From Bacillus niameyensis (lineage in GTDB: Bacteria > Bacillota > Bacilli > Bacillales > Bacillaceae_C): a stretch of 64,000 bases of DNA. The notes below the pieces were generated by a model, which had not been told where the DNA came from, searched no databases, and worked only from the letters and a program-made list of their open reading frames with translations. Both the position numbers and the translations under genes were made by a program. Every line of letters begins with the position of its first letter. The first letter of the stretch is position 1. Positions 28,265-58,790 of the stretch are shown here, in pieces. The DNA is taken from assembly GCF_001375535.1 (NCBI RefSeq), contig NZ_LN831197.1, forward strand, positions 1,721,824-1,785,823. The letters run 5' to 3'.

Positions 28265-28312
28265 AAAAATTGAGCTTCAAGTTTATGACTGTAGGTTTGA
28301 GGCTCAATTTTT
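28265..28312 (+). terminator. Terminator of yesL-yesS operon
   Basis: AAAAATTGAGC/GCTCAATTTTT with a U-tract, 53 bases after the regulator stop codon. Confidence 0.8.
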
Positions 28313-28356
28313 ATCATAAAATAATAAAATTGAGTTACTTTTTTAGGCGGAGAACG

Positions 28357-29232
28357 ATGAAAGACTCACAGCCGAATATACTTTTTATTCTCACCGATCA
28401 ACAGCGTATTGATACTTTAAAAGCTTATGGCGGAAAAGTATGTCAAACTCCAAATATTAACGAGTTAGCGAAAGAAAGTGTAATTTTTAACAATACATAT
28501 GCAAGCTGTCCTGTTTGTACACCTGCTCGCGCCTCCTTACAAACAGGGCTATACCCTCACAATCATGAAATGAGAAACAATACGTCAGAGCCTGGTTGCC
28601 GTTATGATGAATTACCGAATACCCCTGAGTTACTTAGCAATCAATTGAAAAAGCAAAATTACAAGATTGGCTATACAGGCAAGTGGCATCTTGGTTCCGG
28701 TCCAACTTCTGTCGGTTATGAAGGCGATGATTTTCCAGGACATGGTGCTGGCGGACATAGTTATTCTCAATACCATGACTATCTGCAGGAAAAAGGGCTT
28801 AATGTTCAACTCAAAAATATAATATCTGGCCATTATCAAGGTCATTCTGCTGCAGAGGTTGTTTCTCCAATCGAAACGACCGTTGAATATTTTTTAGTTG
28901 ATCAAGCTATTCATTACATTGACCAATTTCGACACGAGGAGAATCCCTTTTATTTTCAATTAAACTTTTGGGGGCCGCACGAACCCTATATAGCACCTAC
29001 TAAACATTTAGATTTATACCGCGATTTGGACCTGGAACCGTGGCCAAACTTTTATGATGATTCTACTAATAAACCATCTATTCATAATGTTAAAAGAGCT
29101 CGCTCATCCGAATGGAATACGTTCGAGCCTTATGTGAAACATTATTTTGCAAGCGTTAGCTTAATTGATGAACAGATTGGTAGATTACTTGATTACTTAA
29201 AGGCACATGATCTCTATGACAATACGATTAGA
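28357..29232 (+). pseudogene. Sulfatase gene, 5' part, truncated
   Basis: Starts at ATG 28357 (GGCGGAG upstream) with MKDSQPNILFILTDQQRIDT. The formylglycine site CTPAR lies in CPVCTPARASLQTGLYPH and a second conserved element in GYTGKWHLGSG. Sulfatase homology is continuous to SLIDEQIGRLLDYLKAHDLYDNTI near 29232 and then stops abruptly. The continuation FSADHGES is found inverted in the next segment. The open frame runs on to 29394 but that tail is antisense of the inverted piece. The last catalytic-domain part and the C-terminal domain are missing, so it is probably inactive. Confidence 0.85.
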
Positions 29233-29438
29233 TTCGTCCTCTGGCACACCTGCCCAATCAAGAATACTCGAATAAATGTCGCAAGTTCCTACGAAACGAT
29301 CTTCGTATTTAGCTTCATTAAATTTCTCAGCAGGTTTCACGATCAGTGGAATATGACAAGTTTCCTCATACATAAAGAAAATTTTATCACATAAACCTCC
29401 ATGAATCCCTAACGATTCACCATGGTCGGCCGAAAAAA
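29233..29438 (-). pseudogene. Inverted middle segment of the same sulfatase
   Basis: Read on the minus strand this piece encodes IIFSADHGESLGIHGG, then YEETCHIPLIVKPAEK and SILDWAGVPEDESN, exactly the stretch expected after LYDNTI in the plus-strand fragment. Flipping about 206 bases restores a continuous sulfatase frame (DNT-IIFSADHG). So the piece has been inverted in place. It has no start or stop of its own family type. Confidence 0.8.
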
Positions 29439-29440
29439 TG

Positions 29441-29931
29441 ATTGGTTCAGAGCATGTGAAGACACCGAATATTGATAAATTAGCATGCGAAGGTATTCGC
29501 TTTACGAATTGGTACTCCAATTCTCCTGTGTGCTCACCATCGAGAGCTTCATTGCTAACCGGGAAATATCCAATACGGACTGGAGTAGACCATATTCTAA
29601 CTGGAAAAAGGGGTCACGCTGGATTATCGAATCAACATGAAACTTTGCCATCGAAACTTAAAGAAAATGGTTATAAGACAGCAATGTTCGGTAAATGGCA
29701 CTTAGGGACAACACCTGAAACCCGACCAAATGCACATGGTTTTGATGAGTTTTTCGGTTTTCATGCGGGCTGTGTTGATTATTATTCACACATTTTTTAT
29801 TGGGAATCCCCTCCTGTCCATGACCTTTGGGAAAATGAAGAGGAAGTTTGGGAGAACGGGGAATATTTGACTGAATCGATTACGGAAAGAGCTGTCAACT
29901 TTATTCAAGATCAAAATATGGATCAACCATC
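29441..29931 (+). pseudogene. Second sulfatase gene, internal fragment
   Basis: Begins in mid-gene at GSEHVKTPNIDKLACEGIRF, lacking the usual first 20-25 residues, and carries the formylglycine site CSPSR in SPVCSPSRASLLTGKYP and GKWHLGTTPETRP. Homology continues to ITERAVNFIQDQNMDQP and ends at 29931, where the 52-bp repeat array begins. Both ends are lost, so this is a different sulfatase from the preceding one, joined to it by a deletion. A weak in-frame ATG at 29438 is fortuitous. Confidence 0.8.
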
Positions 29932-30957
29932 GATTTTTCAATTCTTTTGGGCGAATAGACCCCCTCTATTCGACCGTTCAATCGACTTTTCAATTCTTTC
30001 GGGCGAATTGAACGCTCCTATTCGACCGTTCAATCGATTTTTCAATTCTTTCGGGCGAATTGAACGCTCCTATTCGACCGTTCAATCGACTTTTCAATTC
30101 TTTCGGGCGAATTGAACGCCTCTATTCGACCGTTCACTCAATTTTTCAATTCTTTCGGGCGAATTGAACGCCTCTATTCGACCGTTCAATCGATTTTTCA
30201 ATTCTTTCGGGCGAATAGACCCCCTCTATTCGACCGTTCAATCGATTTTTCAATTCTTTCGGGCGAATTGAACGCTCCTATTCGACCGTTCAATCGATTT
30301 TTCAATTCTTTCGGGCGAATTGAACGCCTCTATTCGACCGTTCAATCGACTTTTCAATTCTTTCGGGCGAATAGACCCCCTCTATTCGACCGTTCAATCG
30401 ACTTTTCAATTCTTTCGGGCGAATTGAACGCCTCTATTCGACCGTTCAATCGATTTTTCACTTCTTTCGGGCGAATAGCCCCCCTCTATTCGACCGTTCA
30501 ATCGACTTTTCAATTCTTTCGGGCGAATAGACCCCCTCTATTCGACCGTTCAATCGACTTTTCAATTCTTTCGGGCGAATTGAACGCTCCTATTCGACCG
30601 TTCAATCGATTTTTCACTTCTTTCGGGCGAATAGACCCCCTCTATTCGACCGTTCAATCGATTTTTCAATTCTTTCGGGCGAATAGACCCCCTCTATTCG
30701 ACCGTTCAATCGACTTTTCAATTCTTTCGGTCGAATAGACCCCCTCTATTCGACCGTTCAATCGATTTTTCACTTCTTTCGGGCGAATAGACCCCCTCTA
30801 TTCGACCGTTCAATCGACTTTTCAATTCTTTCGGGCGAATTGAACGCTCCTATTCGACCGTTCAATCGATTTTTCACTTCTTTCGGTCGAATAGCCCCCC
30901 TCTATTCGACCGTTCACCTACCCTTTCACTTCATTCGGACAAATAGAGCACTTTCTC
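29932..30957. repeat. 52-bp tandem array, about 20 hairpin units
   Basis: The core TTCGACCGTTCA recurs exactly every 52 bases from 29969 to 30905, giving 19 copies plus a partial unit at the left, with no indels. Units fall into two types differing in about ten bases: type A contains GAATAGACCCCCTCTA (about 10 copies) and type B GAATTGAACG (9 copies). In A, CGGGCGAATAG pairs with CTATTCGACCG over a 7-base loop; in B, ATTGAACG pairs with CGTTCAAT. The last unit is degenerate. Reading frames through the array are by-products of a period not divisible by three. Confidence 0.9.
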
Positions 30958-30984: not shown

Positions 30985-32082
30985 TTATCCTATTCTACAA
31001 TCCTTCAATACTTTATCGTTTAATTTACAACCTAGTCCAGGTTCTTCCGGCAATGTATAATAGCCATTTACAACTTTGATTGGATCTTCCCAAATGTCCG
31101 CAATCGATTCATAGCAATGTTCTACCATAGGCACATTTGAGGAAGCTGCAGCAAGCTGTACATGTAACTTTTGTTGTACATTTGTATGAGGGATAACTTC
31201 CAAATTATAACAACGAGCGAGTGCTGCCACATCTAACCATTCATCAATTCCTGATAGTTTCGTAGCATCAGCTTGAACGATATCGACTGCGCCCATTTCA
31301 ATATAATCGCGGAAATCATATTTCGTATAAATCGTTTCCCCAACAGCAATCGGCAAATCTAGTGAGTGTGCTAATTCAGCATGGGCCCTTTTATCAAATG
31401 GATTCATCGGCTCTTCTAACCAATACACATCCAATTCTTCCAATTTTCTTCCCCACACCATGGAAGTTTTCAAGTCCCAAACTGTGTTTACATCAACCAT
31501 TAACTTAATATTATCGCCAATCGCTTTTCGAACAGCTTTTACTCTCTCATAATCTTCTCTTGGGTCAGGTAGACCAACCTTCATTTTCACGGCATCATAG
31601 CCACGTTCAATTAAGGTCATCATGTCTTTCAACAACTCATCTGTTGTGACATGTAGCCATCCCCCGTCAGTATTATAGGCCTTCACTTTATCTTTTACAG
31701 GACCAAGATATTTCCATAAAGGCATATTCGCTACTTTCAATTTAATATCCCATAAAGCTAACTCTACAGCGCAAAGACCGACACGAGTCACTCCTACTTG
31801 ACCAATAAAATGATTCGTATAATGTAACTCTCGTAAAATATTTTTATGCATAAGCGGGTCTTTACCAATTAGCTTAGGTGTGTACGTATCATCAATAATC
31901 GCTTGAACCGCTCTAGTTCCTTTTGTATAGTTCCAGTTAAAGCCCCAGCCACTAATACCTTCATCCGTATCCAAGCGAACCACAATAAATTCAACAGATT
32001 CCAATCGAGTTTGTGAATCAGTAATAGCACGTTGTTTTAAAGGGACATCCAATAAATAGGTTTCTACTTTCGTAATCTTCAT
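30985..32082 (-). CDS. Enolase-superfamily sugar-acid dehydratase (mandelate racemase subgroup)
   Basis: A 365-residue member of the mandelate racemase/enolase superfamily. The acid-base KxK is in AVKMKVGLP near residue 162; metal ligands are in MVDVNTVW, WLEEPM and VGETIYTK; and the subgroup His lies in PHTNVQQ near residue 293. Sugar-acid dehydratases (L-fuconate, rhamnonate, galactonate) share this arrangement. The ATG at 32082 is favoured (MKITKVETYLLDV start), an ATG five codons earlier being the alternative. Cotranscribed after the sulfatase at 32113-33513. Given the fucosidases, L-fuconate is the leading substrate guess. Confidence 0.87.
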   Translation of the reverse strand: MKITKVETYLLDVPLKQRAITDSQTRLESVEFIVVRLDTDEGISGWGFNWNYTKGTRAVQAIIDDTYTPKLIGKDPLMHKNILRELHYTNHFIGQVGVTRVGLCAVELALWDIKLKVANMPLWKYLGPVKDKVKAYNTDGGWLHVTTDELLKDMMTLIERGYDAVKMKVGLPDPREDYERVKAVRKAIGDNIKLMVDVNTVWDLKTSMVWGRKLEELDVYWLEEPMNPFDKRAHAELAHSLDLPIAVGETIYTKYDFRDYIEMGAVDIVQADATKLSGIDEWLDVAALARCYNLEVIPHTNVQQKLHVQLAAASSNVPMVEHCYESIADIWEDPIKVVNGYYTLPEEPGLGCKLNDKVLKDCRIG

Positions 32083-32112
32083 ATTTATTCCCACCATTTC
32101 TATATAGTGATG

Positions 32113-58656: not shown

Positions 58657-58685
58657 AATTTTCAGACAAGTGAAAATAAAAATGT

Positions 58686-58790
58686 TCTTATCACGAGAAG
58701 CCTAGGGTCTGGCCCGTTGAAGCTTCAGCAACCTTTCTGAAAACAGAAAAGGTGCTAAATCCAGCAAGATTGAATCTTGAGAGATAAGAG
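58686..58790 (+). promoter_or_regulatory. SAM-I (S-box) riboswitch
   Basis: All conserved S-box blocks are present in order: CTTATCACGAGAAG (P1 and K-turn start), GGGTCTGGCCC, GAAGCTTCAGCAACC, the P3 hairpin around CTGAAAACAG, GGTGCTAAATCCAGCA and the closing GAGAGATAAG that pairs with CTTATC. In this class SAM binding favours the downstream terminator, so the operon is on when SAM (methionine) is low. It precedes the flavoprotein and ABC importer genes. Confidence 0.93.

Follow-up and report, generated by a model that had tools for sequence, protein, structure and literature searches.

A Bacillales family of polar palindrome arrays with a fixed 51–52-bp period and a NERD-domain protein as candidate partner

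Plasmid iterons and partition sites are helically phased rows of repeated sites for a sequence-specific protein. Among dispersed chromosomal repeats, REP/BIME sequences are extragenic intergenic palindromes with a species-specific core that occur in clusters, going by the REP features given in PMC3733652. The pneumococcal BOX, RUP and SPRITE repeats are described in PMC3049150 as short, intergenic and enriched between convergent genes, with 60.8–63.3% on the leading strand, a figure said there to mirror coding bias, and the BOX element (boxA-boxB(n)-boxC) has a tandem middle module. PMC2267715 also names stem-loop families of B. halodurans and B. anthracis.

The arrays that we describe share with REP/BIME the extragenic placement, species-specific core and clustering, but they carry no GTAG or CGTC tag, the feet of the unit on the purine-rich (R) strand being AA(A/C)GGTC ... 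GCCCGAA, and they are strictly head-to-tail at 51–52 bp. Like BOX they have a tandem module, although we saw no boxA or boxC caps and the linker differs at each locus. A semi-palindromic repeat of ~29 bp, common to dispersed loci, with a ~23-bp spacer also recalls CRISPR; however, the spacers repeat within an array and the linkers have AA ends and a purine-rich half in common. Pfam scans of 20 proteins, mostly neighbours of Bacillus niameyensis arrays, found no cas genes. There is a parallel in geometry with iterons and partition sites, since spacing is fixed near whole helical turns, from which we infer the phase itself, but the present arrays are chromosomal and numerous in each genome, lack a plasmid context and have only a candidate for the ligand. 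In the literature searched, mainly outside subscription journals, we found no description of the family, and sequence-word matches look unrelated.

The window analysed is a 64,000-nucleotide stretch of the B. niameyensis genome, for which a preliminary description had reported a core repeated 19 times every 52 bases in two unit types. This was borne out, with TTCGACCGTTCA occurring 19 times from 29969 to 30905 at exactly that interval, while TRF gave a period of 52, 19.0 copies, 91% matches and 0% indels over 29929–30916. There are ten units of type A and nine of type B; as had been noted, two of the type-A units carry a repaired stem mismatch, and these lie at 30728 and 30884. Open frames within the array are readings of the repeat, and a coding repeat was rejected, as the 52-bp period is not divisible by three. 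A sulfatase gene fragment passes directly into the array, whose + strand begins within the truncated gene, and the rest of the fragment was not seen right past the array.

Features of the window array and its flanks (positions in the window).
Feature	Position	Strand	Remarks
Window array	29929..30957	- (R strand)	19 junction palindromes, period 52, last unit degenerate
First of 19 palindromic cores	29948..29976	.	11-bp arm + 7-bp centre + 11-bp arm
Remaining palindromic cores	every 52 bp up to 30884-30912		
Degenerate outermost element	30913..30957	-	R-strand 5' end of the array
Sulfatase gene fragment	29438..29941	+	PF00884 profile positions 22-168 of 301
Mandelate racemase/enolase-like gene	30985..32097	-	convergent neighbour of the array

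Within 28270–29520 the sulfatase gene carries PF00884 positions 235–301 on the opposite strand, at ~29247–29442, and this reversed end is a small inversion adjoining the second sulfatase piece that is truncated at the array; a weak 22-nt inverted repeat (73%) flanks it. A SAM riboswitch lies at 58685–58790 of the window.

A genome-wide search for the unit, which the preliminary description had proposed, found eight further arrays. A 104-base probe matched seven other sites, and a palindrome pattern (≤2 mismatches), which had 181 matches per strand compared with 9 for its reversed control, indicated the eighth at 4.007 Mb. All have a period of 51 or 52, a linker specific to each and a similar core, CGG(T/G)CGAATAG-N7-CTATTCG(A/C)CCG, and they include a small array of 2–3 units (L026) and one beside rho (L023) whose roughly 75 units include 66 identical ones. 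Clustering near the origin was hinted at by these arrays but found no confirmation in two other genomes, G201 and G352.

The preliminary description had further claimed that the two unit types switch hairpin partners. In the window array this holds: folded as RNA, type B favours the alternative helix ATTGAACG/CGTTCAAT, with pair probabilities of 0.95–1.0 apart from the outermost pair (0.49 on one strand, 0.67 on the other), while with DNA parameters it forms the conserved hairpin on the + strand and the alternative hairpin on the - strand. As a general property the switch failed, being absent from the eight sister arrays, none of which has TTGAACG and CGTTCAA on one strand; GAATTG is present in L025 (14) and L027 (9). 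The switch is a variant private to the window array, and perhaps a template-switch product.

Searching related genomes, also proposed beforehand, placed the array family in many Bacillales. The exact core was not found in 33 relatives of the family, and a covariance model gave weak matches in two congeners, G018 and G009, whose DNA holds 52-bp arrays, the core being altered on both arms in the former (CGGTCGCATAG/CTATGCGACC) and having arms that pair less well in the latter. Scanning named genomes with a pattern likewise brought up Allobacillus salarius and A. saliphilus, both of which have 52-bp arrays carrying the core. Of the order's 397 genomes, a broader model matched at least 34, in 17 of 135 genera, and at least 24 of these genomes, in 8 genera, had two or more matches, with ten genomes that had a single weak match left out; these counts are lower bounds, because the broader model missed G018, whose array the covariance model had found. 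Across the class 8 of 398 genomes matched, four of them outside the order with one or two matches each. For array reading we retrieved 60 stretches around matches and later 25 more, and arrays were read directly in 21 genomes of 6 families, with at least 27 places carrying one or more elements in G201. Neither the window array nor two other arrays nor two element patterns had a counterpart in plasmids, phages or viral contigs, and a viral, phage or plasmid origin was rejected. Pattern matches from other phyla, among them a Solirubrobacterales MAG, had different flanks and no 52-bp arrays by TRF, and were discarded. Seven loci of this one MAG (L034, L035, L039, L043, L045, L050 and L052) carry a dispersed GCCGAATAG-N7-CTATTCGGCC hairpin with similar flanks, which looks like an unrelated repeat family.

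On the R strand the dyad-symmetric core is GGTC-NN-ATAG-N7-CTAT-NN-GCCC, every 51 or 52 bp, and the unit consensus is AA(A/C)GGTC-NN-ATAGAA-NNN-TTCTAT-NN-GCCCGAA, followed by a purine-rich half linker. Spacing was 51 or 52 bp in 423 of 428 cases, taken from 62 arrays with at least two chained units (six TRF rows that had just one chained unit are not among them). Among the matches listed, arrays mostly open with the right half of the palindrome and close with the left half. Since both array ends thus fall within the palindrome centre, the element has inverted ends and measures 44 or 45 bp. It is bounded by the inverted half-sites CTATNNGCCC ... GGTCNNATAG and stands 7 bp before the next element, so that half-sites face head to head every 51–52 bp. 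Standard lengths were found in 454/470 elements and 419/436 centres. An element pattern (≤2 mismatches) had 119 matches in G201 and 141 in G352, some places being counted on both strands, and its reversed control had none in either. Linkers remain 22 or 23 nt long despite divergence to background identity: the median identity between linkers of different arrays was 0.29, compared with 0.27 predicted from base composition, and between neighbours we counted 903 substitutions against 20 length changes. A second hairpin inside the linker is weak. The fixed spacing is a better fit to protein-DNA geometry than to a free hairpin.

Four loci of genus g17 (L163, L165, L176 and L177) are two-block arrays whose junction has a similar longer centre, ~AAGGAAATAAAAGGAAT, of 17 nt, ten above the usual length. 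By eye, the R-strand flanks of L163, L166 and L098 are G/T-rich before the array and C/A-rich after it.

We examined arm symmetry in 23 units hand-picked for diversity from many arrays. Both partners vary in 8 of 13 arm pairs, and the covariation score was reached by 0/500 shuffles; contrary signs are that pair 4-26 is mostly T versus C and that the NN positions are unpaired in g17. The earlier suggestion that symmetry is maintained and is not random drift is upheld by this result. The core is also partly shared within genomes, identity at its four variable positions being 0.66 within genomes (362 array pairs) compared with 0.44 between them (2155), while linker identity was 0.34 and 0.33, respectively, so that copies within a genome, unlike BOX/MITE, have no common element body. 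The variable bases are GATC in all nine B. niameyensis arrays, CTAA in 6/7 arrays of G116 and most often AAAC in G201, but are mixed in G145, G151 and G404. Orthologous arrays were counted separately in these identities, as in the consensus, gene context, orientation and terminator statistics. Recent whole-array copying explains the shared core poorly, because orthologous arrays in different g17 species can have linkers that are still up to 0.89 identical, and a core common to unlinked arrays in several genomes hints at a trans-acting partner.

Our tentative preference, somewhat short of an even chance, is that the arrays are phased rows of sites for a sequence-specific dimeric protein on duplex DNA, with a NERD protein as the candidate ligand. 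It is favoured because element and centre lengths are fixed while linkers are saturated, the site has dyad symmetry, and unlinked arrays have a core in common. Dimeric DNA-binding proteins would be held in a row along a single side of the duplex, the 52-bp period corresponding to about five helical turns; array polarity would mostly follow replication, and copy number would shift through ordinary recombination or slippage between repeats. The existence of the family, its spacing and symmetry, the partly shared core, the bias in orientation and the gene linkage in five genomes come from the sequences themselves, whereas binding, the identity of the ligand, helical phasing and the role of a bound array are inferred. 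The mixed cores of G145, G151 and G404 led us to rate this reading, and the more specific one with a NERD protein given below, lower, and two of the rival readings slightly higher.

Using a simple ORF rule, 60 arrays were placed in 19 convergent, 39 tandem and only 2 divergent spacers, and the R strand was the gene strand in 33 of the 39 tandem cases. Once dnaA had been located, the R strand proved to be leading in 50 of 58 rows (L117, L135 and L161 contribute two rows each), in 46/50 rows with clear polarity and in 20/24 between convergent genes, although this exceeds the gene bias only modestly, flanking ORFs being already 74% leading (219/297). This orientation, together with a period that is constant across families, differs from BOX/RUP/SPRITE. 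The eight non-leading rows comprise two B. niameyensis arrays, one array of G145, the two of G103 and, in G201 and G352, three near-symmetric rows that lie far from the origin. Near the terminus of these two genomes, L160 and L173 have nearly equal strand scores, unlike most arrays. Polarity and intergenic placement point to a chromosome-level role rather than control of neighbouring genes, and our guess is that a bound array may serve chromosome organisation or recombination control.

The gene-strand bias and the dyad covariation would also be expected of an RNA-level element, whose transcribed hairpins bind a protein or yield ~52-nt RNAs, acting as a sponge or 3'-UTR element. We regard this as improbable, since 23/98 arrays, compared with 0/490 shuffled controls, have a terminator-like site in the 200 nt upstream of them, making read-through from the preceding gene unlikely in a quarter of arrays, and free hairpins do not need rigid 7-bp and 45-bp lengths. 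Furthermore, the window array had no Rfam match above the gathering score, and where both flanking genes oppose replication the cases split, the R strand following replication in L134 and the genes in L148. Inside the arrays, a GC stem with a T run, as in an intrinsic terminator, was found in 0/101 on the R strand and 2/101 on the Y strand, which gives no support to the transcription barrier proposed in the preliminary description, at least one of the terminator kind.

Arrays are also retained in place, as 39 pairs of arrays from different genomes lie between homologous genes on both sides, often with a different copy number (for example 4 compared with 14 elements), indicating that arrays remain at their sites for the age of a genus. 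Such variation, and the identical units in L023, could also reflect a selfish or neutral minisatellite whose palindromes form hairpins in the nascent lagging strand, so that slippage lengthens the array by 52 nt at a time, with the orientation bias arising from orientation-dependent stability and the symmetry from template switching between arms. The Y-strand hairpin was indeed the more stable in 44/62 arrays, compared with 16 for the R strand, using RNA parameters, and in 35 compared with 22 using DNA parameters, and divergent spacers are avoided. However, a common period across genera is unexpected for independent minisatellites with substitution-saturated linkers, and unlinked loci of one genome tend to have the core, not the linker, in common; we consider this explanation rather unlikely.

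Inverted element ends, seen where arrays stop inside the palindrome centre, suggest instead a short mobile element with terminal inverted repeats, as in BOX/MITE, moved in trans and tandemly self-inserted, in a REP/RAYT-like or BOX/MITE-like manner or through homing by a NERD nuclease. At murA-spoIID, the B. niameyensis array is flanked by the murA terminator on one side and, towards spoIID, by a conserved stretch, and no array unit occurs in the corresponding 4 kb of any of 15 other genomes of the genus, in 13 of which murA was recognised next to spoIID. Context and leading-strand bias are also akin in kind to those described for pneumococcal BOX, RUP and SPRITE (PMC3049150). Nevertheless, linkers are unrelated among loci of one genome, the replicon searches above gave no phage, plasmid or viral match, and RAYT-like genes do not track the arrays: over 29 genomes, PF01797 (Y1_Tnp) had no match in array-bearing G116 and three IS200-like matches in G000, while 10/12 congeners without detected arrays have RAYT-like genes, judged from frame lengths, and no array units surround eight such genes. 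A mobile origin is thus distinctly improbable in our estimation, and membership of REP/RAYT was rejected on the missing tag and the lack of co-occurrence with RAYT-like genes. Each of the RNA, minisatellite and mobile-element readings covers some of the facts, but not the rigid spacing and the shared core together. Most g17 genomes searched have single Y1_Tnp (RAYT-like) genes (L210, L211, L215 and others) with no array units nearby.

For the preferred protein-bound array, gene linkage offers a possible ligand. A NERD-domain gene (product ~311 aa) lies beside arrays in five genomes of three families (G000, G201, G352, G145 and G268). When the R strand is read, it follows the array on the 3' side and points back into it. 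It is the sole neighbour found common to array loci of the three families, the other ORFs of these loci having no match between families, and was not found at the remaining array loci read; having been recognised post hoc, this linkage is suggestive only. By the account of PMC9040797, NERD function in bacteria was unstudied before that paper. The B. niameyensis copy is split into two frames, whether by mutation or by assembly error, and four intact copies have D85, E98-V-K100 and two CxxC pairs in common. An AlphaFold2 model, weak overall but better at 221–312 (block means 70–88), matches winged helices at 250–312 and the nuclease domains of Cas4, AddAB and RecB at 67–165, both with middling Z, while Foldseek returned no match at E 0.001 and PADLOC and NCBIfam gave weak matches only. 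Relatives were absent from viral contigs, and one, distant and archaeal, occurs in plasmids.

On this sequence evidence, the NERD-zinc ribbon-winged helix protein is the best candidate for a ligand that would bind the arrays and may also nick or cut there. A two-part Bacillales system, in which this nuclease-like winged-helix protein recognises dozens of polar, phased palindrome arrays, is doubtful at present, though if true it would not have been described before: protein and array cores would change together in each lineage, and leading-strand intergenic sites would be marked or cut, organising or recombining the chromosome. The arrays suggest a possible role for the NERD protein and would provide a polar chromosomal landmark in Bacillus relatives, with a geometry that is constant across bacterial families while the sequence turns over. 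We also observed that the same alpha/beta hydrolase gene, at 65–66% identity, stands beside the small B. niameyensis array L026 and the g17 arrays L168/L178.
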